A stretch of DNA of 64,000 bases from positions 621,036 to 685,035 of the forward strand of contig NZ_BAAARN010000001.1 in the NCBI RefSeq assembly GCF_039532215.1, written 5' to 3'. Each line of letters starts with the position of its first letter. The first letter of the stretch is position 1. This document shows positions 4,920 to 49,064 of this stretch, piece by piece. Origin of the DNA: Pedococcus aerophilus (GTDB lineage: Bacteria; Actinomycetota; Actinomycetes; Actinomycetales; Dermatophilaceae). The position numbers and the translations under genes were made by a program. A model generated the notes under the pieces. That model searched no databases. It was given only the letters and a program-made list of their open reading frames with translations, and was not told the DNA's origin.

Positions 4920-6089
4920 TCACCGCCGGGACGGGACGGTGAGCACCAACGCCGCGGCGCAGGCCGCTGCCAGGAACAGCAGTCCCGCGGGGAAGCCGGC
5001 GGCCGTCGCGATCGCGCCCACCACCACGGCACCGGCCGCGGTGCCGCCGTCGAACCCGATGTTCCAGCCTGCGCTGGCGACCGGGATGTGCCCCGGGTCG
5101 ACGCGGGCGAAGGCGACCACGAGCGTGAGGTTCTGCAGGGCTCCGTACGCGACACCGGCCAGGGCTGCGCCGAGGAGCAGCAGACCCAGGTCTCCGTCGC
5201 GGCTCGCACCCCAGGCACAGGTGGCGAGGCCTGCCACCCCGGTGAGGAGCAGGGGCGCGAGAAAGCGCTCGGCGCCATACCGGTCGGACAGGTGCCCGGC
5301 ACCCCACCGGCACAGGGCGGTCCCGATCCCGAGCACGAGCAGGACGACGGCCGAGGCGGTGCCCGATCCGACGATCTGGGGCACGAAGGTGAGCAGCCCG
5401 CCACCGGCCATCGTCACCGCGAACAGGATCGCGGTGGGACGGGCCACGGCGAGCGCGCTGCCCCGGTCGATCCGTGGGGTCCGCTCGGTGACCCGGTCGG
5501 CCGGTCCGAGGGCGCGGGCCACGGCGAAGGCGAAGGGCGCGGCCAGGACGGGCAGCGCGCCGAGGGCGAAAACGGCGCCGTAGCCCCAGTGTTCGGCGAC
5601 GGCCACCGAGGCGGGGAGCAGGACGAGGTTGGGCACGGCGACCGCGAGGCCGTAGGCGCCGATGGCTGCCCCGCGGCGGTGCACCGGGACGAGGTGGGCG
5701 GCCACGGCCGACCCGGTGACGGTGAGGATCCCGAACCCGATCCCCCGCACCGCGGACAGCGCGAGCACCGGACCGAGGGCATCGGACAGGAGGTAGAGCG
5801 GCGAGGCCGCGCCCATGAGGAGGACGCCGACGGCGATCACGGGCCCGTGACCGAACCGGCGCAGCAGCGCGGGCACGGCGAACTGCGTCACCACGGTGGC
5901 CGCGAGCAGCACCCCGTTGACCAGCCCGGAGCCTGCCTCGTCGGCGCCACCGCGGACCGCCCACAACGGGGCCACCGACAGCAGCGCGGCGTAGCCGCTG
6001 AAGCCGAACGCGGACAGCAGGCCCAGCGCAGGCATCCCGGGCAGCCGCCACACCGACCCGGTGGCGGCGTCCGGAGTGGTCGTGCTCAC
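4920..6089 (-). CDS. MFS transporter
   Basis: A hydrophobic protein of about 389 residues with roughly 12 predicted membrane segments and MFS-type loops (GAGHLSDRYGAERFLAP resembles motif A between segments 6 and 7). The substrate is unknown; drug/metabolite efflux is typical. The open frame runs further upstream, but I place the start at the GTG at 6089 because it overlaps the stop codon of the upstream methyltransferase as GTGA, the same coupling used by the preceding gene pair. It is the last gene of the APC permease-methyltransferase-MFS operon. Confidence 0.85.
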   Translation of the reverse strand: MSTTTPDAATGSVWRLPGMPALGLLSAFGFSGYAALLSVAPLWAVRGGADEAGSGLVNGVLLAATVVTQFAVPALLRRFGHGPVIAVGVLLMGAASPLYLLSDALGPVLALSAVRGIGFGILTVTGSAVAAHLVPVHRRGAAIGAYGLAVAVPNLVLLPASVAVAEHWGYGAVFALGALPVLAAPFAFAVARALGPADRVTERTPRIDRGSALAVARPTAILFAVTMAGGGLLTFVPQIVGSGTASAVVLLVLGIGTALCRWGAGHLSDRYGAERFLAPLLLTGVAGLATCAWGASRDGDLGLLLLGAALAGVAYGALQNLTLVVAFARVDPGHIPVASAGWNIGFDGGTAAGAVVVGAIATAAGFPAGLLFLAAACAAALVLTVPSRR

Positions 6090-40952: not shown

Positions 40953-42239
40953 TCAGCGGTCGCGCGGAGGGCGTTCGTCGCGATCGCGACCACGGCCTCC
41001 CGGCTCGCGGTGGTGACGGTCCTTGTCGCTGATGAGCGCAGCGGGGCGGACGCTGCCGGCGCCGAAGCGGGCACTGGCCCGGTCGACGGCACGGTCGGCC
41101 TCGCGCCAGCCGTGGTCCGGTTCGTCGAGCAGGCCCTGGATGGGGGCGCCCTCGCTGTCGACGAGCCCTTCCATCCGCACCCCGACGAGGCGGATCCGGG
41201 CGCGCTGGAGGCCCAGCGCGTCATACAGGCCGCGGGCGGTCTCGTAGATCTCGCGGCTCACGTCGGTGGGGTCGCGCAGCGTCTTGCTCCGCGTGATCGT
41301 CGTGAAGTCGGCGAAGCGCACCCGGATCGTGACGGTGCGCCCGAGCATCCCCGCGGAACGGACCCGTGCGGCGGTCCGGTCGCTGAGCTTGAGCAGGTGG
41401 CGGTGGATCTGGACCGGGTCGTCGAGGTCGAACTCGAACGTCTCGTCCGAGCCGATGCTGCGCTCACGGCGCACCGGCTCGACACCACGGGGGTCGCGGC
41501 CCCACGACAGGTCGTGCAGGTGCGGACCGGCGGACTCTCCCAGCGCCCGGCGAAGGGTGTCGAGCGGGGTGTGCGCGATGTCGGCGACGGTGCGCAGCCC
41601 CAGCCGCAGCAGCGTCTCCTCGGTCTTGTCGCCCACTCCCCACAGAGCCCCGACCGGGAGCTGCTGGACGAAGCTCACCACCTCGTCCCGGGGCACGACC
41701 ACCAGGCCGTCGGGCTTGGCCAGCCCGGAGGCCAGCTTGGCCACGAACTTCGTGGGGGCCACACCGACCGAGCAGGTGATGCCCTGCTCGTCGTGGATGG
41801 TGTCGCGGATCAGCTGGCCGATGCGGGCGGGGTTGCCCAGGCGGCGGACCGAGCCGGCGACGTCGAGGAAGGCCTCGTCGAGGGACAACGGCTCGACCTT
41901 CGGCGTGATGGTGTCGAAGGTGGCCATCACCCCGGCAGAGATCTGGCTGTAGAGGGCGTGGTCGGGCGCGATCACGGTGGCCTGCGGGCACAACCGGCGG
42001 GCCCGGGACATCGGCATCGCCGAGGCGACCCCAAACCGCCTGGCCTCGTAGGTCGCCGACAGCACCACCCCGCGGTTGCCGCCGCCGATGATCACGGGCG
42101 TGCCGACGAGCTCGGGACGGCTCAGCAGCGACGCCGAGGCGTAGAAGGCGTCCATGTCGACATGCAGCACCGTGCAACCGGTGTCGTCAGGTGGCCGGTC
42201 CGCGCTGCGTGACGGCAGGGTGAACTGGCGACGACTCAC
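40953..42239 (-). CDS. dinB: DNA polymerase IV (Y-family)
   Basis: 428 residues. Palm/finger motifs HVDMDAFYAS (metal Asp), VIIGGGNRGVVLSATYEAR and SLDEAFLDVAG (catalytic Asp-Glu) are intact; a helix-hairpin-helix thumb (LPVGALWGVGDKTEETLLRLG) and the little-finger domain follow. The C-terminal 40 residues are basic and Arg/His/Asp-rich. GTG 42239 overlaps the upstream methyltransferase stop as GTGA, so it is the last gene of the SOS operon that starts at 48255. Translesion synthesis past damaged bases is the known role. Confidence 0.95.
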   Translation of the reverse strand: MSRRQFTLPSRSADRPPDDTGCTVLHVDMDAFYASASLLSRPELVGTPVIIGGGNRGVVLSATYEARRFGVASAMPMSRARRLCPQATVIAPDHALYSQISAGVMATFDTITPKVEPLSLDEAFLDVAGSVRRLGNPARIGQLIRDTIHDEQGITCSVGVAPTKFVAKLASGLAKPDGLVVVPRDEVVSFVQQLPVGALWGVGDKTEETLLRLGLRTVADIAHTPLDTLRRALGESAGPHLHDLSWGRDPRGVEPVRRERSIGSDETFEFDLDDPVQIHRHLLKLSDRTAARVRSAGMLGRTVTIRVRFADFTTITRSKTLRDPTDVSREIYETARGLYDALGLQRARIRLVGVRMEGLVDSEGAPIQGLLDEPDHGWREADRAVDRASARFGAGSVRPAALISDKDRHHREPGGRGRDRDERPPRDR

Positions 42240-43021
42240 GTGCGGGCGAGGACGTGGACCGCAGCGCCGAGCTGGCCGAGGAAGGCGAACTCGGGGTGCC
42301 TGCTGGCGGCGGCCTCGAGCTCGAGCAGCGCGGTGCGGTCGGCGTCGGAGTCGATGAGGGCCGACGGCACGAGGTCGCTGAACAGGCGGACCCCGTGGAC
42401 GTCCTCGACCACCAGCCCGGTCTGCTCGACCATCGCCCGGAGGGCGCTGGCGTCGAAGCGTCGGGGCAGCGGGTCGGCTGCCCCCCACCGGCCGTCGTCG
42501 CTGACCAGCGCCTGCTTGGCCTGGGTGAACTGGCCGGCCAGCACCCGCGCCAGGACGACGGCCAGGCGCTGGGCGGCGACGATGCTCAGGTGCCCGCCCG
42601 GAGCGACGACACCGGCCAGGGCGACGAGCGTGGCCTGCGGGTCGTCGACCACCTCGAGGGTGCCGTGGCAGCAGACGAGGTCGACGAGGCGGTCGCCGAC
42701 GATGGCGGCGAGCGAGTCGGCGTCACCCTGCACGGCGGTGACCCGTTCGGCCACCCCGCGCTCGGCGCTGCGCCGGGACAGCGATGCCAAGGCGTCGGGG
42801 CTGGGGTCGACGACGACGACCTCGTGGCCGAGCTCGGCGAGGGGGACGGCCAGGCCGCCGGTGCCACCACCGAGGTCGAGGACACGCAGCGGGCGGTCGT
42901 CACCGGTCGGCCGGGCCGCCTGCTTGTCGGCGAGCAGACCCGTCACCGCGGTCCAGACCGCAGACGTCCGCAAGGCTGTCTCGACGCCACCGCGTCGGGT
43001 CCGCCACTGCTCGTCGGCCAC
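42236..43021 (-). CDS. SAM-dependent methyltransferase (class I)
   Basis: 261 residues with the SAM-binding loop VLDLGGGTGGLAVPLAELG, the acidic VVVVDPSPDAL, and a GDADSL motif II. The target is unknown; the fold is closest to UbiE/SmtA-like small-molecule or RNA methylases. AGGAGG lies 7 nt before GTG 43021, which I prefer over an upstream GTG (43063) next to the dnaE2 stop. It sits between dnaE2 and dinB with stop/start overlaps on the dinB side, so it is SOS-regulated by position. Confidence 0.85.
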   Translation of the reverse strand: MADEQWRTRRGGVETALRTSAVWTAVTGLLADKQAARPTGDDRPLRVLDLGGGTGGLAVPLAELGHEVVVVDPSPDALASLSRRSAERGVAERVTAVQGDADSLAAIVGDRLVDLVCCHGTLEVVDDPQATLVALAGVVAPGGHLSIVAAQRLAVVLARVLAGQFTQAKQALVSDDGRWGAADPLPRRFDASALRAMVEQTGLVVEDVHGVRLFSDLVPSALIDSDADRTALLELEAAASRHPEFAFLGQLGAAVHVLART

Positions 43022-43064
43022 CGGGGCCACCTCCTGTGCTGCCGTCTGGATCGTCGCTCTCACC

Positions 43065-46000
43065 CTAGTGGCCGGAGCTGCCGGGGCTGGAGTGCCACAG
43101 CTTGCGGGGGGCAGCGAGCCGACCCATGCCGCTATCGTCGGGCACCTCGGCACCCTGGGCCAGCGCCCGCGACCCGCGCACGTCGCCGCCGGCGGGCTTG
43201 ATGTCGGCGTACGGCGACTGCTTGAAGCCCGAGGCGTGCACCAGCACCCTGCGCCCTCCCGGACCTGCGGCGCGCTGGACCTCCTCGGCCGCCTCGGCCT
43301 GCTCGGTGGCGCTGCGCTCGCTGTCCTCCATGGCGGCGTGCACGGCCTCGATCCCGCCGCGGGTCCACGCCTCCCACAACGGGGTGAGCTCCCACGCCCC
43401 GGTGGCCCGCAGGGAGATCCCCCGCGGTCCGGTGCGACGGACCACCCCGCGCACGAGCATCATCCAGGAGTGGAAGACCGTGGCGGCGTAGGGCCCCTGG
43501 ACGTCCTCGAAGAAGGTCGCGTCGACCGGACCGGTGGAGTCGTCGAGGGTGAGGAAGACGACTCGTCGCCCCGAACGGATCGGCGGGGTCTGGGTCGCCA
43601 CCTTGACCCCGCAGACCCAGACCGTGGACCGGCTGCGCGAACGCAGCAGGTCACGGCTGCGGGTCACCCCGAGCGCCTCGAGCAGCGGGGCGTAGAAGTC
43701 GACGACGTGGGCGCTGGCGTCAAGGCCGAGGATGTCGAGCTCGGCCCGGACGCGTTCGGGACCGGTGAGCTCCGGCAGGCCGGTGCCCGAGGTGAGCTCG
43801 GGCCGGTCGCCGAGGTCGAGGGTGAGCTGGGTCGGCTGCTCCGACGCCGCCGTCACCGGCAGCGCGGCCTGCGACTGCCCTGCCGCGAGCGCCCGCACCC
43901 CTGACCCGTCACTCACGCCGGCGTCCGGGGACCGTCCGCCGACGGGTATGCCGCGCCCACCCCTGCCGCGCCGGGGCGCTGCACGCTTGGCCGACCGGTC
44001 CAGGGCCCGGCCGTAGCGGTCGAGCTCGGCGACGTGCAGCAGGAGGTCACGACGGGTGGTGCGGCCGCGGCGCCCGAGGCCGCCACTGCCCATCCCCCGT
44101 GAGCCCAGGACACCTCCCCCTGAGGTGGAGCCGGTGCTGGACCCCGAGCCTGACCGGTCGCCGGAGCCATGGTTCGAGCCGTCGCCTGAGCCGTCGCCGG
44201 AGTCATCGCCGGAGTCATCGCCCGACCTCGCCCCGGGTCTGGTGCCCCAGCCGCTGCCTCCGGGTCGCGGGGCTCCCCCCGGACCACCCAGCGACCCCAT
44301 GCCGTAGAGGGAGTCGAACCCGCCGGCGAGCACGAGGCGCTCGGCGACCGGCCGCGAGACGTGCGCCCGGTGCCAGAAGTCGGCGAGACCGGCGTAGGGC
44401 TGGCCCGCGACGATCCGGGCCACCTCGGCGTCGCTGATCCCCCGCACGTCGGCCAGGGACAGCCGGATGCCGTAGCCCCGGGCGTCGGGGAGGTCGGGGT
44501 GGGCCGGCTCGGGAACGGACCAGCCCCACGACGGCTCGTCGAAGTCCTGCACCTGCGGGTCCGTGGCGAGGTCGTCGAGGCGCTCGACACGGTAGGCGCC
44601 GGTCGAGGCGTTGACGTCCAGCCCGAGCACCGCGATGCCGAGCGAGCGGGCGTCGTCGAGGATCAGCCGCTTGGGGTACATGCCCGGGTCGTGGGTGAGC
44701 ACCCCGGACAGGAATGCCGCCGGGTGGTGGGTCTTCAGCCACGCCGAGTGGTAGGTCGGCAGGGCGAAGGCCGCAGCGTGGGCCTTGCAGAACCCGAACG
44801 ACGCGAAGGCCTTGAGCACCGCCCAGATCCGGTCCACGTCGGCCGGGCTGTAGCCACGTGCCAGCGCGGCAGGTCGCCACCAGGCCTCGATCTCCACCTG
44901 ACCTCGAGGGGTGCCGAGGGTGCGGCGGACCTCGTCGGCCTGGGCCAGCGAGACCCCGGTCGTCTCGGCGACGATCATCAGCACCTGCTCGTGGAAGACC
45001 ACGACCCCCTCGGTCTCCCGGAGCGCCTCGATGAGCGTGGGGTGCAGGTAGCTGACCTCCTTCCAGCCGTGCCGGGCCTCGAGGAAGGGCGTGATCATGT
45101 CGGACTTGACCGGGCCGGGCCGGAACAGCGAGATGTCGATGACGAGGTCCTCGAAGCGCTCCGGGCCGAACTTGCCGATCAGCTCGCGCTGGCCGGGGCT
45201 CTCGATCTGGAAGCAGCCGAGGGTGTGGGCCGTGCGGATCAGCCGGAACGTCGCCTCGTCGTCGAGCGGCACCTGTCGCTGGTCGTCGAGGTCGACCTCC
45301 ACCCCGTCGACCCGCTGCACCTCCTGTACCGCGTGCGCCATCGCCGACTGCATGCGGATGCCCAGCACGTCGAGCTTGAGCAGGCCGAGGGCCTCGACGT
45401 CGTCCTTGTCGAACTGGCTCATCGGGAACCCCAGCCAGCTCGCCTCCACCGGGGTGCGGTCGAGCAGCCGGCCGTTGGAGAGCACCACGCCGCACGGGTG
45501 CAGCGCGATGTGGCGCGGGAGTCCGTCGAGTCGCTCGACGAGGTCGAACAGGACCCGCATCCGGGGGCTGTCCAGCCCACGCGAGCGCAGCTCGGGCAGC
45601 TCGGCGATGGCGCTGCGGGCGTCCCTGGCCCTGATGTGCGGGAAGGCCTTGGCGATCTCGTCGATCTCGCTCGGCGGCAGGCCGAGGGCTGCCCCCACGT
45701 CGCGGATCGCGTGGCGCACCTTGTAGGTGTCCATCATCGAGACGCAGGTGACGCGCTCCCCACCGAACCGGTCGAGGATGCGTTCGTAGACCTCGGTGCG
45801 ACGGGCGGACTCCACGTCGATGTCGATGTCGGGCAGCTCGGCCCGCAGCGGCGAGCAGAACCGCTCCATGAGCAGGTTGTAGCGGATCGGGTCGACCCCG
45901 CTGATGCCGAGCAGGTAGTTGACCAGCGACCCTGCGCCGGACCCGCGCGCGGCGACGCGGACCCCCATCCCGCGGATGAGGTCGACGACCTCGGCGACGG

Positions 46001-47219
46001 TGAGGAAGTAGGTGGGGTAGCCCAGCTCGGCGATGACCTTGAGCTCCTCGGTGAGCCGGCGCTCGACCGCAGCGAACTCCTTCTCCCCCACTCCCGGGTA
46101 GCGGGTCGCGACAGCCGCGCGGCAGCGCTCCTCCAACCTCGCCTGCGGGCTCTCCCCGGGCCCGATCCCCAGCGTGTGCGGCTCCGGGAGCTGCACCGAA
46201 CCGATGCCCAGGTCGTGCCGGGCGTTCTGCGCGCAGCCCAACCCCAGCGCCAGGGTGCGCCGGAGCAGCTCGTCGGCGCGACCGCGCTCGCCGCCGGTGA
46301 CGTCGAGCGCGATGGAGTACATCGTCGGGGTGGCGGCGAGGTGGGCGGCATCGGTGACCCGGTCGAGGTGACGGGTGTCGAGGGCGACGAGGCGGCGGGC
46401 CGCGTCGAGCAGGTCGACCACGGCCGACTCCCCCGGGTCGACGTGGCGCACCGCGGCGGTGAGCACCGCGGGCACCCCCTGCTCGTCGGCCAGGCCGAGC
46501 ATCCGACGGGCGTGCCCACGCGAGGCCGGGGTGCCCTCGGGCCCGCCGTGGCAGACCACCTCGAGGACGACCGCGCCCTCGGGCAGCCGTCGGCGCCAGG
46601 CGTCGAGCAGGACCCGCGCGCGGTCGACGCGCTTGGCCAGCAGGGCCCGGCCCACGTCGGAGTCGGGTCCGAGCAGGACGACCAGCGGGCTGGCGTGGTC
46701 ACGGCTGGACCTGCGGTCGCCACCGCGCCAGCACCCGGCGGCGACGACGGCGGCCGAGGTCACCGGGACGCCCCGCTCCCCGCGCAGGTGGGTCTCGGTC
46801 ACCAAGCGGCACAACGCCGCCCAGCCGACTCCGTCCGGCACGCCGGCCGCCCGCCCCCGGGCCAGCACCGTGACCCGCGGGTGGCGGGGATCGCGGTCCG
46901 CGCCGCCCCGGGCCGGGATCCGCGGCGACCGGACGGCACCGGAGCCACCTCGAGGTCCACCGTCATCGTCGCCGGGGGCGTCCGGCCCCACGGCGAGGTC
47001 GACCCCGAGGACCGGGGCGATCCCGGCCGCGCTTGCCGCCTGGACGAAGCGGACCGCGCCGTAGAGACCGTCGCGGTCGGTCAGTGCGAGGATCGGCTGC
47101 CGGTGCTGGGCGGCGCGCTCGACGAGGGCCTCCGGGGTGGAGGTGCCGTAACGCATCGAGAACCCCGAGGCGACGTGCAGGTGCACGAACTCCGTCGCCG
47201 CACCGGGGACGGCGCTCAT
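43065..47219 (-). CDS. dnaE2: error-prone DNA polymerase DnaE2 (ImuC)
   Basis: 1384 residues, longer than the usual 1050-1180. PHP domain first (HLHVASGFSMRYGTSTPEAL), then the C-family palm with catalytic PDIDIDVESARR (about residues 458-469), fingers with the LDVLGIRMQSAM and GCFQIESPGQRELI motifs, and a C-terminal OB fold. Two inserts explain the size: about 45 Gly/Arg/Asp-rich residues in the PHP domain and about 80 Gly/Ser/Asp residues at roughly 976-1055, encoded partly by a 12-bp tandem repeat. ATG 47219 overlaps the HEPN stop as ATGA. Confidence 0.95.
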   Translation of the reverse strand: MSAVPGAATEFVHLHVASGFSMRYGTSTPEALVERAAQHRQPILALTDRDGLYGAVRFVQAASAAGIAPVLGVDLAVGPDAPGDDDGGPRGGSGAVRSPRIPARGGADRDPRHPRVTVLARGRAAGVPDGVGWAALCRLVTETHLRGERGVPVTSAAVVAAGCWRGGDRRSSRDHASPLVVLLGPDSDVGRALLAKRVDRARVLLDAWRRRLPEGAVVLEVVCHGGPEGTPASRGHARRMLGLADEQGVPAVLTAAVRHVDPGESAVVDLLDAARRLVALDTRHLDRVTDAAHLAATPTMYSIALDVTGGERGRADELLRRTLALGLGCAQNARHDLGIGSVQLPEPHTLGIGPGESPQARLEERCRAAVATRYPGVGEKEFAAVERRLTEELKVIAELGYPTYFLTVAEVVDLIRGMGVRVAARGSGAGSLVNYLLGISGVDPIRYNLLMERFCSPLRAELPDIDIDVESARRTEVYERILDRFGGERVTCVSMMDTYKVRHAIRDVGAALGLPPSEIDEIAKAFPHIRARDARSAIAELPELRSRGLDSPRMRVLFDLVERLDGLPRHIALHPCGVVLSNGRLLDRTPVEASWLGFPMSQFDKDDVEALGLLKLDVLGIRMQSAMAHAVQEVQRVDGVEVDLDDQRQVPLDDEATFRLIRTAHTLGCFQIESPGQRELIGKFGPERFEDLVIDISLFRPGPVKSDMITPFLEARHGWKEVSYLHPTLIEALRETEGVVVFHEQVLMIVAETTGVSLAQADEVRRTLGTPRGQVEIEAWWRPAALARGYSPADVDRIWAVLKAFASFGFCKAHAAAFALPTYHSAWLKTHHPAAFLSGVLTHDPGMYPKRLILDDARSLGIAVLGLDVNASTGAYRVERLDDLATDPQVQDFDEPSWGWSVPEPAHPDLPDARGYGIRLSLADVRGISDAEVARIVAGQPYAGLADFWHRAHVSRPVAERLVLAGGFDSLYGMGSLGGPGGAPRPGGSGWGTRPGARSGDDSGDDSGDGSGDGSNHGSGDRSGSGSSTGSTSGGGVLGSRGMGSGGLGRRGRTTRRDLLLHVAELDRYGRALDRSAKRAAPRRGRGGRGIPVGGRSPDAGVSDGSGVRALAAGQSQAALPVTAASEQPTQLTLDLGDRPELTSGTGLPELTGPERVRAELDILGLDASAHVVDFYAPLLEALGVTRSRDLLRSRSRSTVWVCGVKVATQTPPIRSGRRVVFLTLDDSTGPVDATFFEDVQGPYAATVFHSWMMLVRGVVRRTGPRGISLRATGAWELTPLWEAWTRGGIEAVHAAMEDSERSATEQAEAAEEVQRAAGPGGRRVLVHASGFKQSPYADIKPAGGDVRGSRALAQGAEVPDDSGMGRLAAPRKLWHSSPGSSGH
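44181..44228. repeat. 12-bp tandem repeat inside dnaE2
   Basis: Four near-identical 12-bp units (44181-44192, 44193-44204, 44205-44216, 44217-44228; consensus [ag]tcgccggag[tc]c). They encode a Ser-Gly-Asp-Asp-type repeat on the minus strand and lie in the low-complexity linker of DnaE2. Copy number could vary by slippage. Confidence 0.8.
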
Positions 47220-47680
47220 GGCGCGGCGCGGGTCGGGACGGGTCCACCGGCGAGCGCGGTGGGCACGAGCACCTCGTCGTGCCCACCGGGGTGCACGGGC
47301 AGCCCGAGGCTGCGGCAGACCAGGTCGAGGAACACCTCGGCCTGGCGGATCAGGTCGTCGGCCTCACGGGCGCTGTGGGGCAGGCTGCGGCGGGCCGCGA
47401 CGAGCTCGAAGAACTCGGCCCACTCCGCGAGCTCGGGAGCGACCGTCGGCAGCAGCTCCCACAGCGAGCGCGGACCGCAGTGGCCGTCGGGGGTGGCCCG
47501 AGCCGCCACCAGGGCGGCGGCAGCACGCAGCGCACCGAGCTGGGCCTGCAGGTAGCGCTGGGACACCTCCTGGGTCTGGCAGGCCTCGAGCAGGGAGTGC
47601 CGGGACCGGTCGAGCAGGTCGAGGCTCGCTCCGGCGCTGCGCGTGGTGCCGACCGCGGACGTGATCGTCATGGCAGTCAT
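47216..47680 (-). CDS. HEPN domain protein, SAV_6107 family
   Basis: 154 residues, mostly helical. It fits the SAV_6107-type HEPN domain seen with dnaE2 in actinobacteria. R97-x4-H102 (RRSLPH) matches the R-x4-6-H catalytic motif of HEPN RNases, so RNase activity is possible but unproven. ATG 47680 lies 1 nt after the DUF6504 stop; a second ATG at 47671 is possible. The frame beyond 47680 is a shadow of DUF6504. Second gene of the SOS operon. Confidence 0.8.
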   Translation of the reverse strand: MTAMTITSAVGTTRSAGASLDLLDRSRHSLLEACQTQEVSQRYLQAQLGALRAAAALVAARATPDGHCGPRSLWELLPTVAPELAEWAEFFELVAARRSLPHSAREADDLIRQAEVFLDLVCRSLGLPVHPGGHDEVLVPTALAGGPVPTRAAP

Positions 47681-47681
47681 G

Positions 47682-48074
47682 TCAGTCCGCCACCCGCAGC
47701 AGGCGCCAGCGCAGGCCGAGGTCCTGGTGGTCGGCGCCGAGGTCGTAGACCCCGACGGCGGCGCAGCGTCCGGCACTGGCCTCCACCCGCCACACCTGGC
47801 GCTCCCGGGCGGCGGCGAGGACGTCGCCGCTGCCCTGCTCACGTGCTTCGCGCCACCAGGGTCGGCGCTCCTGCCAGCGGTCGAGGACGGCCCGCACGAC
47901 ATAGAGCCGACCGCGCCACACGAAGGCCTCGGGCTCGGGGACGGCGGGACCACCCTGGCCGGGATCCCCCGCGGTGGCACCGCCCTGGACGGGACCGCCC
48001 GGGGTGGCAGCGATGCCAACGGCACCGACTGCCTGTTGGCGGACCTCGATGGGTTCTTCGTACTGGCGCACCAC
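47682..48074 (-). CDS. DUF6504 family protein
   Basis: A 130-residue soluble protein (VVRQYEEPIEVRQQ... PEAFVWRGRLYVVRAVLDRWQERRPWWRE ... WRLLRVAD) of the DUF6504 family. In other actinobacteria it lies near imuB/dnaE2; its function is unknown. The first of two GTG codons (48074) has AGGAGG 7 nt upstream. The mature family core includes the invariant WRGRLY and WWR segments. A 15-residue Gly/Pro stretch separates the N-terminal strand from the rest. First gene after the LexA box. Confidence 0.82.
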   Translation of the reverse strand: MVRQYEEPIEVRQQAVGAVGIAATPGGPVQGGATAGDPGQGGPAVPEPEAFVWRGRLYVVRAVLDRWQERRPWWREAREQGSGDVLAAARERQVWRVEASAGRCAAVGVYDLGADHQDLGLRWRLLRVAD

Positions 48075-48238: not shown

Positions 48239-48256
48239 TTCGAACAGATGTTCGAA
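48239..48256 (-). promoter_or_regulatory. Perfect LexA (SOS) box of the dnaE2-dinB operon
   Basis: TTCGAACAGATGTTCGAA contains the actinobacterial SOS box TCGAAC-N4-GTTCGA with all consensus bases. It lies 165 bp upstream of the DUF6504 start. A possible TTGACG -35 lies on the minus strand at 48289-48294, so LexA would sit just downstream of or over the -10/start region. This makes damage induction of DUF6504-HEPN-dnaE2-methyltransferase-dinB likely. The divergent YbaK gene starts 125 bp away. Confidence 0.9.
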
Positions 48257-48380: not shown

Positions 48381-49064
48381 ATGAGCCCGCTCGAGCCGGT
48401 GGCTCCCACCCCCGCGGACACCCCCGCGACCATGCCTGCGATCACGCCCGAGACGACACCAGCAACCACACCCGCGAGCATCTCCGCGAGCATCCCCGCG
48501 ACCACCCCGGCTTCGACCTCTGCACCCCCGGCGGCGACCTCTGCGACCACACCCGCCACCGGCCCCGGTCGCGACCTCACCGGGCACCCCGCCGTCCAGC
48601 GCGTGCTGGCCACCCTCGCCGTGCACAGCGTGGAGCCAGAGCTCCTCAGCCTGCCCGACGCCGTCCGCACCGCTGCCGCCGCCGCTGCGGCGATCGGGGT
48701 GACCCCGGCCGAGATCGCCAACTCCCTGATCTTCCGCGCGCACGACGAGCAGGGCACGATCACCCCGCTGCTCGTCCTCACCTCCGGCGCCCACCAGGTC
48801 GACCTCGTCAAGATCGCCGACCTCCTCGACGGTGTCGACCACGTCGACCGGGCCGACGCCGACTTCGTCAGGGCCGCCACCGGCTTCGCCATCGGCGGGG
48901 TCGCCCCTGTCGGCCACCCCGAGCCGATCCGGACCATCGTCGACGTCTCACTGAGCCGCTACCGCCACGTCTGGGCCGCGGCAGGCCACAGCCACACCGT
49001 CTACCGCACCACCTACGAAGAGCTCCTGCGCGTCACTGCCGGGCACGCCATCGAAGTGGCCTGA
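48381..49064 (+). CDS. YbaK/EbsC family protein (aminoacyl-tRNA deacylase) with Thr/Pro/Ala-repeat N-terminus
   Basis: 227 residues. From about residue 65 it is a YbaK/ProX-type domain (HPAVQRVLATLAVHSVE, then IGVTPAEIANSLIFRAHD and ATGFAIGGVAPVGHP), which deacylates mischarged tRNA. The first 60 residues are an unusual run of TPATTPAS/ISASIPAT-like repeats. TAGGCT lies 6 nt before ATG 48381 with no SD, so the mRNA may be leaderless and this start is plausible; if wrong, the repeat would be non-coding. Divergent from the SOS operon. Confidence 0.82.
   Translation: MSPLEPVAPTPADTPATMPAITPETTPATTPASISASIPATTPASTSAPPAATSATTPATGPGRDLTGHPAVQRVLATLAVHSVEPELLSLPDAVRTAAAAAAAIGVTPAEIANSLIFRAHDEQGTITPLLVLTSGAHQVDLVKIADLLDGVDHVDRADADFVRAATGFAIGGVAPVGHPEPIRTIVDVSLSRYRHVWAAAGHSHTVYRTTYEELLRVTAGHAIEVA

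Follow-up and report, generated by a model that had tools for sequence, protein, structure and literature searches.

A putatively LexA-controlled operon of Pedococcus aerophilus most probably encodes a DnaE2B mutasome with a stand-alone ImuB C-terminal domain

How could an error-prone DnaE2 polymerase work in an SOS operon that has neither imuA nor imuB beside it? The question is raised by the window analyzed here (the whole stretch of 64,000 nucleotides of Pedococcus aerophilus DNA), in which a putative LexA box, TCGAAC-N4-GTTCGA, reads TCGAACAGATGTTCGA at 48240-48255 (no strand; the letters 48239-48256, box included, are TTCGAACAGATGTTCGAA) and is followed by five genes, all on the minus strand, in the order DUF6504, HEPN, dnaE2, methyltransferase, and dinB. 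The DUF6504 gene (47682-48074) begins 165 bp from the box with a GTG at 48074, 7 nt behind an AAGGAGG Shine-Dalgarno sequence, and encodes a protein of 130 aa that matches PF20114 with 74.8 bits. The next gene (47216-47680, ATG at 47680) encodes an HEPN_SAV_6107 protein of 154 aa (PF18726, 78.4 bits) and is followed by dnaE2 (43065-47219), encoding an error-prone Pol III alpha subunit of the DnaE2B type with 1384 aa and a C-terminal LWHxSPG motif, by a gene for a SAM-dependent methyltransferase (42236-43063; distantly CmoM-like, with 103.5 bits for a model whose cut-off is 366), and by dinB, encoding Pol IV (40953-42239; PRK03858, 381.6 bits, cut-off 367). Read from the sequence, the junctions are 1 nt between DUF6504 and HEPN, an ATGA overlap between HEPN and dnaE2, 1 nt between dnaE2 and the methyltransferase gene, which starts with GTG (an internal GTG behind AGGAGG being an alternative start), and a GTGA overlap between the methyltransferase gene and dinB. 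The initial annotation had described five minus-strand genes joined in this way, which the sequence confirms directly and with which the family models agree.

That annotation had also noted the absence of imuA and imuB next to the operon and asked for a whole-genome search, which, once run, found neither gene. The assembly comprises 4.02 Mb in 10 contigs and is rated 100% complete. PF00817 detected two Y-family proteins in it, both Pol IV-like with catalytic motifs; the second gene, elsewhere in the genome, encodes a PRK03352-type Pol IV (519.5 bits, cut-off 330), and its best upstream LexA box scores 9/12. Actinobacterial ImuB and ImuA' protein queries gave no match at E 0.1 in this genome, in searches run without a positive control, and the ImuA' model (NF058630), with 12 of 34 candidates scored, gave a single match (E 2.3e-5) that scores far under the cut-off and is presumably RecA; in the same search, 123 of the 296 class genomes had a match over the cut-off. 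An imuB gene elsewhere in the genome was rejected on the basis of the Y-family, ImuB, and ImuA' searches, the second Y-family gene being a Pol IV.

On the evidence of profile matches, DUF6504 is the C-terminal domain of ImuB (ImuB-C) encoded alone. PF20114 scored over its cut-off at the C terminus of two of the eight ImuB proteins scanned, namely those of Mesorhizobium terrae (28.9 bits, residues 431-504 of 507) and Ensifer (26.2 bits, residues 428-504 of 506), whose genes both sit between the ImuA and DnaE2 genes. It matched below threshold, in the same C-terminal place, in the ImuBs of Rhizobium (15.6) and Agrobacterium (15.2), and found no match in the remaining four of the eight, Streptomyces ImuB2 and three betaproteobacterial ImuBs. 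The NCBI product name of the Mesorhizobium ImuB is "DUF6504 family protein"; together with the PF20114 matches in ImuB C termini, this led us to reject the possibility that DUF6504 is unrelated to ImuB. A profile comparison of DUF6504 with 26 ImuB sequences gave a weak match (hhalign probability 1.7%, P 0.03; unrelated controls, 0.44-0.73) that places DUF6504 on the ImuB C terminus (columns 377-472 of 472). The AlphaFold model of DUF6504, with a mean pLDDT of 79.7, is built of six strands and a single helix, and a fold search of the PDB with this model returned nothing at E <1 (best E 1.4), in line with the statement of PMC12926913 that ImuB-C has no closely related PDB structure. DUF6504 also accompanies dnaE on plasmids, as lexA-PolY-DUF6504-dnaE in Deinococcus QL22 and as DUF6504-dnaE on pYA7-1a of Arthrobacter YA7-1, arrangements that resemble the ImuB-C modules outlined in PMC12926913 and PMC6511836. 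The name ImuB-C, and solo ImuB-C with DnaE2, are found in PMC3765255, and our literature search (mainly of freely available main texts) found no paper that mentions DUF6504.

The polymerase itself falls, by our phylogeny, in the DnaE2B clade. In a FastTree analysis of 38 DnaE sequences (obtained from 39 loci tried, with one DnaE1 as outgroup), the window DnaE2 is one of the 21 members of a DnaE2B clade (support 0.849) that is separate from DnaE2A, with nested clades of 18, 17, and 15 members (support 0.895, 0.985, and 0.967). The same tree, with its one DnaE1, rejects the idea that this 1384-aa protein is a second replicative DnaE1. Its score with the NCBIfam error-prone model, 614 bits, is under the cut-off of 939 and close to that of other DnaE2B proteins (610 and 628), versus 1190 and 1381 for DnaE2A. 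The SRDF[HR] C terminus, reported in about 77% of DnaE2 proteins (PMC3919608), is lacking in the window DnaE2; it occurs within the last 60 residues in 0 of 155 DnaE2B proteins, of which 105 have LWHxSPG, and it is present in 8 of 14 DnaE2A proteins. LWHxSPG(SSG) is thus a frequent C-terminal ending of DnaE2B, in the place of the SRDF[HR] of many DnaE2A, and is perhaps an interaction motif. A Gly/Ser/Asp-rich stretch occupies residues ~980-1050 of the window DnaE2.

As for the Y-family partner, the window DinB is predicted from its motifs, HVDMDAFYA and SLDEAFL, to be a catalytically active polymerase, the two motif patterns being matched by 104 and 95 of 106 DinB homologues. Its C terminus appears to carry a RecA-NT-like motif, EADRAVDRASARFGAGSVRPAALI (41031-41102, minus strand), located by profile alignment with the RecA of the same genome. 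A profile of 96 DinB C termini aligns in register with this RecA (READRAVDRASARFGAGSV with AKSLDSVMGQIEKNFGKGAV), 8 of 20,000 shuffles scoring as high, and, of 79 RecA tiles, the eight with the best scores all begin in the first 37 residues of RecA. The match is short and two cruder tests were not significant: in an ungapped RecA-NT test, the window DinB did no better than shuffles (167/500) and a higher score, located internally, went to the second DinB (19/500); in a larger database, the RecA N terminus ranked 18th, behind shuffles and decoys.

Hence, the puzzle of the missing ImuA and ImuB dissolves if DUF6504 is ImuB-C, DinB is intact with a RecA-NT-like tail, and DnaE2 belongs to the DnaE2B clade. 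This fits the earlier suggestion that DinB or DUF6504 may supply the ImuB function, DUF6504 as ImuB-C and DinB as a Y-family core with a RecA-NT-like tail. The module type has already been described, as a prediction printed in 2026: according to PMC12926913, a computational study, DnaE2 proteins form groups A, B, and X, genomes with DnaE2B lack imuA and imuB, and one group combines DnaE2B, active PolY, ImuB-C, and RecA (exemplar, Tessaracoccus lapidicaptus), another DnaE2B and ImuB-C (Arthrobacter alpinus); as stated there, two of eleven module types have been characterized so far, and the AlphaFold complex models published are of other species. The window operon shares with the DnaE2B-PolY-[ImuB-C]-RecA module the DnaE2B clade, a separate ImuB-C (here DUF6504), the adjacency of the genes, and a PolY with intact motifs and a RecA-NT-like tail, with no imuA or imuB found here. 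The main text of PMC12926913 does not contain the words HEPN, methyltransferase, or LexA, whereas in the operon family studied here HEPN is a regular neighbor, the methyltransferase a frequent one, and the LexA box conserved.

The comparison with other systems also corrects the premise from which the question arose. The view that known mutasomes keep imuA, imuB, and dnaE2 together is contradicted by PMC12926913, by PMC6511836, according to which the cassette is split in Mycobacterium tuberculosis and M. smegmatis and variants without ImuA occur, and by PMC9380542, in which Streptomyces venezuelae dnaE2-dinP is bound by LexA (chromatin immunoprecipitation sequencing) and induced by mitomycin C (RNA-seq). 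Nor is the cassette split here, as had been suggested for the case that imuB lies elsewhere; the DnaE tree points to a separate module with another DnaE2 clade. The earlier interpretation is partly supported: imuA and imuB were not found in the genome and a substitution by DinB or DUF6504 fits the evidence; the constant association of the three genes and the split cassette do not hold. With the mycobacterial and proteobacterial ImuA-ImuB-DnaE2 mutasome the operon has in common LexA control, a DnaE2, an ImuB-C domain, and a Y-family protein; it differs in that ImuA and ImuB were not found, the DnaE2 clade is another one, the Y-family motifs are intact, and ImuB-C is encoded by a gene of its own. 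The Streptomyces dnaE2-dinP operon (DnaE2B-iPolY; in the LexA regulon of S. venezuelae, PMC9380542) likewise pairs DnaE2 with a Y-family protein in an SOS unit that has no imuA or imuB; unlike in the window, DUF6504 and HEPN were not found at the named Streptomyces dnaE2 loci surveyed (among the best 80 of 575). In S. coelicolor, the Y-family partner is called inactive in PMC6511836 and a dnaE2 mutant had no phenotype (Tsai 2012, as cited in PMC3919608), a point against the mutasome reading proposed below. The Arthrobacter DnaE2B-[ImuB-C] pair (PMC12926913; pYA7-1a) likewise has DUF6504, here directly, before a dnaE of the DnaE2B clade; unlike in the window, pYA7-1a has no PolY, HEPN, or methyltransferase gene beside DUF6504-dnaE.

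Altogether, we propose that the operon is, with high probability, a LexA-controlled DnaE2B mutasome made up of DnaE2B, a stand-alone ImuB-C, an active Y-family polymerase, and RecA. The proposal starts from what is read directly in the sequence, i.e., gene content, order, and spacing, the LexA box and its conservation, the search that found no imuA or imuB, the domains, and the DnaE2B clade. In our model, DNA damage would lead to RecA filaments, LexA cleavage, and transcription of the operon. DinB would then dock on RecA via its RecA-NT-like tail, replacing the polymerase core of ImuB, and RecA would stand where the canonical system uses ImuA. DUF6504, as a beta-rich, separate ImuB tail domain, would bridge to the PHP domain of DnaE2B, which would copy past the lesion in an error-prone manner, DinB providing a second active polymerase, and the HEPN protein would most likely be a noncatalytic adaptor of the same complex. 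Damage induction, physical contacts, and mutagenic activity are thereby predicted for this organism from its sequence. Under this model, DUF6504 would gain an identity as ImuB-C, the SOS mutagenesis of this lineage would be placed in a published module type, and the operon would offer a test of DnaE2 working without ImuA and ImuB.

The operon is conserved among relatives, PF20114 being matched in 23 of the 39 genomes of the relatives search, own genome included. With the window proteins as tblastn queries, the 22 relatives' loci gave HEPN in 22, dnaE2 in 20, the methyltransferase in 18, and dinB in 21; for the 21 untruncated loci (L056 is a short contig end), dnaE2 was present in 20, the methyltransferase in 18, and dinB in 21, dnaE2 being undetected in L037 and the methyltransferase in L046, L052, and L053. 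Class-wide, DUF6504 was matched in 121 of 296 genomes, in 119 of them over cut-off. Gene content was assigned by score thresholds at 165 loci, drawn from 67 stretches (roughly one for each genus, plus some second hits), 18 further stretches including four ImuA' loci, and a DnaE2-alignment search of named genome contigs (best 80 of 575 confirmed loci); L052 of the relatives set and L170 of the survey are one locus counted in both. The counts from these 165 loci (best 80 of 575 included) are not natural frequencies, because contig ends cut several loci and sampling was by DUF6504 or DnaE2: all five genes in 39 loci; DUF6504, HEPN, dnaE2, and dinB without the methyltransferase in 24; DUF6504, HEPN, and dnaE2 in 6, and with the methyltransferase as a fourth gene in 4; DUF6504, HEPN, methyltransferase, and dinB without dnaE2 in 3; and DUF6504 with HEPN only in 6. 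Loci without HEPN had DUF6504 and dnaE2 (14), these two with dinB (13) or with the methyltransferase and dinB (1), or DUF6504 alone (16). In the same survey, HEPN, dnaE2, and dinB occurred in 3 loci, dnaE2 with dinB in 1, dnaE2 alone of the five genes in 29, many of them from Streptomyces, where the inactive Y-family partner is matched, and none of the five genes in 6, four of which are the ImuA' loci. DUF6504 and dnaE2B thus occur together in 101 loci (best 80 of 575 included), with HEPN in 73 and dinB in 77 of them, and the methyltransferase is an optional member of the operon. The nearest named loci include Knoellia, Phycicoccus, Tetrasphaera, Terrabacter, Janibacter, and Humibacillus (among the best 80 of 575), which places the window in this family of Micrococcales (Intrasporangiaceae/Dermatophilaceae). 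The arrangement in Tessaracoccus antarcticus, which shares its genus with the published exemplar, is DUF6504-HEPN-dnaE2-dinB.

This variation in gene content bears on whether the two polymerases act together. DnaE2B with ImuB-C on one side and DinB on the other could be independent SOS polymerases that merely share one LexA-controlled promoter, DinB acting alone or with RecA only. The intact catalytic motifs of DinB would suit such an arrangement, as would the 14 of 165 loci (best 80 of 575 included; some cut by contig ends) with DUF6504 and dnaE2B but without HEPN and DinB, e.g., in Nonomuraea (L178), Planotetraspora (L201 and L202), and on the Arthrobacter plasmid, and three Geodermatophilus loci (L173, L180, and L190) in which dinB lies ~6-7 kb beyond dnaE2. 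However, dinB is in the unit in all 21 untruncated relatives' loci, its RecA-NT-like tail fits a RecA-bound role, and in four loci from which dnaE2B is absent (L037, L061, L123, and L145) DUF6504 and HEPN stay with methyltransferase-dinB, so that DUF6504 is also tied to dinB. We therefore consider independent polymerases unlikely, and the joint mutasome remains our preferred reading.

The HEPN protein of the window is likely noncatalytic, since the histidine of its RRSLPH is not conserved and the R-x4-H of helix 2 reads R-x4-Q in its sequence. Among 108 homologues, that histidine is kept in 6 and replaced by Glu in 76, and the second R-x4-H, in helix 2 of the family, has its Arg in 106 and its His in 87, the window protein having Gln at the latter position. 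Of the 108 tails, 78 match a loose R-x4-6-H pattern, and SAV_6107 HEPN is listed in PMC3710099 as lacking the Rx4-6H motif, the active site of HEPN RNase toxins. The AlphaFold model has five helices (mean pLDDT 85.8), and its top PDB matches are HEPN proteins (best probability, 1.00 with E 0.048; none at E 0.001). A known defense protein was rejected as an explanation for HEPN, which had no PADLOC match; the methyltransferase matched mad2 in PADLOC (60.8 bits, E 2.6e-17), which probably reflects a general resemblance among methyltransferases. For both proteins, we infer their roles in the operon. In Nonomuraea gerenzanensis, DUF6504 and dnaE2B lie at ~10.02 Mb and the HEPN gene at ~4.34 Mb of the record; close to the start of this solo HEPN_SAV_6107-like gene (L271:5467-6234) are two LexA-like boxes, each 11/12, at 5467 and 5507, and no other gene of the operon was detected in the surrounding stretch. 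Plasmid searches with the DUF6504 and HEPN proteins gave one record each, the same Nonomuraea record. A different HEPN gene, of the RiboL-PSP type, lies just downstream of imuA-imuB-dnaE2 on a Mesorhizobium terrae plasmid (L264:6739-7272). No paper joining DnaE2, ImuB, and HEPN was found in the literature searched (mainly freely available main texts), nor did the titles retrieved for HEPN with LexA and the SOS response include one on this system; HEPN_SAV_6107 as a recurrent operon partner is apparently unreported.

Genomes of the class tend to carry either DUF6504 (119 of 296) or ImuA' (123), the two co-occurring in only 7 (G044, G170, G180, G209, G211, G235, and G317); the Fisher test for ImuA' in 7/119 DUF6504 genomes versus 116/177 others gives 2e-27, a value inflated by shared ancestry. 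In all seven, ImuA'-ImuB-DnaE2A with a perfect LexA box was present in the fetched stretch. Three of them have DUF6504-HEPN-methyltransferase-dinB without dnaE2B (L123 in G180, L061 in G211, and L145 in G235), with no dnaE2B remnant found below E 0.3 in these operons, and the canonical cassette elsewhere (L157, L158, and L268, respectively). In G044 (operon L065, cassette L160), dnaE2B is missing or cut by the contig end, and in G170, G209, and G317 dnaE2B is kept alongside the ImuA' cassette. A dnaE2B-less operon of the same composition occurs in L037 (G005, a genus-mate of the window genome). Since some operons lack dnaE2B, its neighbors do not strictly need it. As a tentative extension, to which we give somewhat less than even chances, HEPN_SAV_6107 could be a dedicated HEPN adaptor of the DnaE2B/DinB mutasome, and the DUF6504-HEPN-methyltransferase-DinB core could take either DnaE2B or ImuA'-ImuB-DnaE2A, the DnaE2s being exchangeable. 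Alternatively, DUF6504, HEPN, the methyltransferase, and DinB could form a DnaE2-independent SOS unit with dnaE2B as a removable passenger, replaceable by ImuA'-ImuB-DnaE2A, for which G180, G211, and G235, possibly G044 as a fourth such genome in spite of the contig end, and, for the missing dnaE2B, G005 would speak. We regard this as improbable. Of the 21 untruncated relatives' loci, 20 have dnaE2B in the operon, as do 73 of the 76 surveyed loci in which DUF6504 and HEPN go with dnaE2B or with methyltransferase-dinB (best 80 of 575 included; the six DUF6504-HEPN-only loci not counted), and three genomes (G317, G170, and G209) keep it together with the ImuA' cassette. The recurrent HEPN partner, which in Nonomuraea stands alone behind LexA-like boxes, and the dnaE2B-less operons in genomes with a canonical cassette make partner exchange among mutasomes testable.

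Finally, by its upstream box the operon is predicted to belong to the actinobacterial SOS (LexA) regulon and would be induced by damage in Pedococcus aerophilus. The window holds one exact match to the LexA box and five further matches with two mismatches each; these 6 matches with at most two mismatches compare with 2.99 expected and are reached by 6 of 100 shuffles, an unremarkable count, so that it is the perfect copy that counts as evidence. In the 4.02-Mb genome the exact pattern is found four times (reversed control, 0), the genome's own lexA and recA each have an 11/12 box in their upstream region, and the consensus given in PMC9380542 is tCGAAC-N4-GNNCGa. The perfect box reported at 48240-48255 is thus present in the sequence, and it is conserved in 23/23 loci (the window and 22 relatives), at 12/12 upstream of DUF6504 in 17 and at 11/12 in 6; among controls, a score of at least 11 was reached by 5 of 4600 shuffled stretches of 760 bp and by 3 of 285 tiles taken downstream. 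In the survey (best 80 of 575 included), 123 loci had enough upstream sequence for scoring: the best box was 12 in 63, 11 in 8, and 9 in 2 of the 73 loci with dnaE2B and HEPN, and 12 in 15, 11 in 4, and 10 in 8 of the 27 with dnaE2B without HEPN. Solo ImuB-C proteins may also be SOS genes, because 10 of the 14 surveyed DUF6504 loci with neither dnaE2B nor HEPN carry an 11-12/12 box upstream. DUF6504 genes without dnaE2B or HEPN (L078, L092, L111, and others) have Ser/Thr kinase, GNAT, or other unrelated genes nearby. This class-wide LexA footprint of the operon, the HEPN partner, and the dnaE2B-less operons in genomes that carry a canonical cassette were not found in print.

On the other side of the box, a divergent gene (48381-49064, plus strand) encodes an aminoacyl-tRNA editing domain with a Thr/Pro/Ala-rich low-complexity N terminus and is found by tblastn near the operon in many, not all, relatives' loci. 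That the box serves this gene and not the operon is very improbable: it does lie in the intergenic stretch common to both, at 125 bp from the divergent ORF's first ATG, but a box of 11-12 is kept upstream of DUF6504 in L042, L046, L049, and L052-L055, where tblastn finds no editing-domain gene, and is also widespread upstream of DUF6504 across the survey loci. The other exact boxes of the genome, three in all (L001:1501-1516, L003:1501-1516, and L004:1501-1516), comprise one without an identifiable gene nearby, one at the start of a ROS_MUCR-matching ORF, and one just before a DUF222 ORF.
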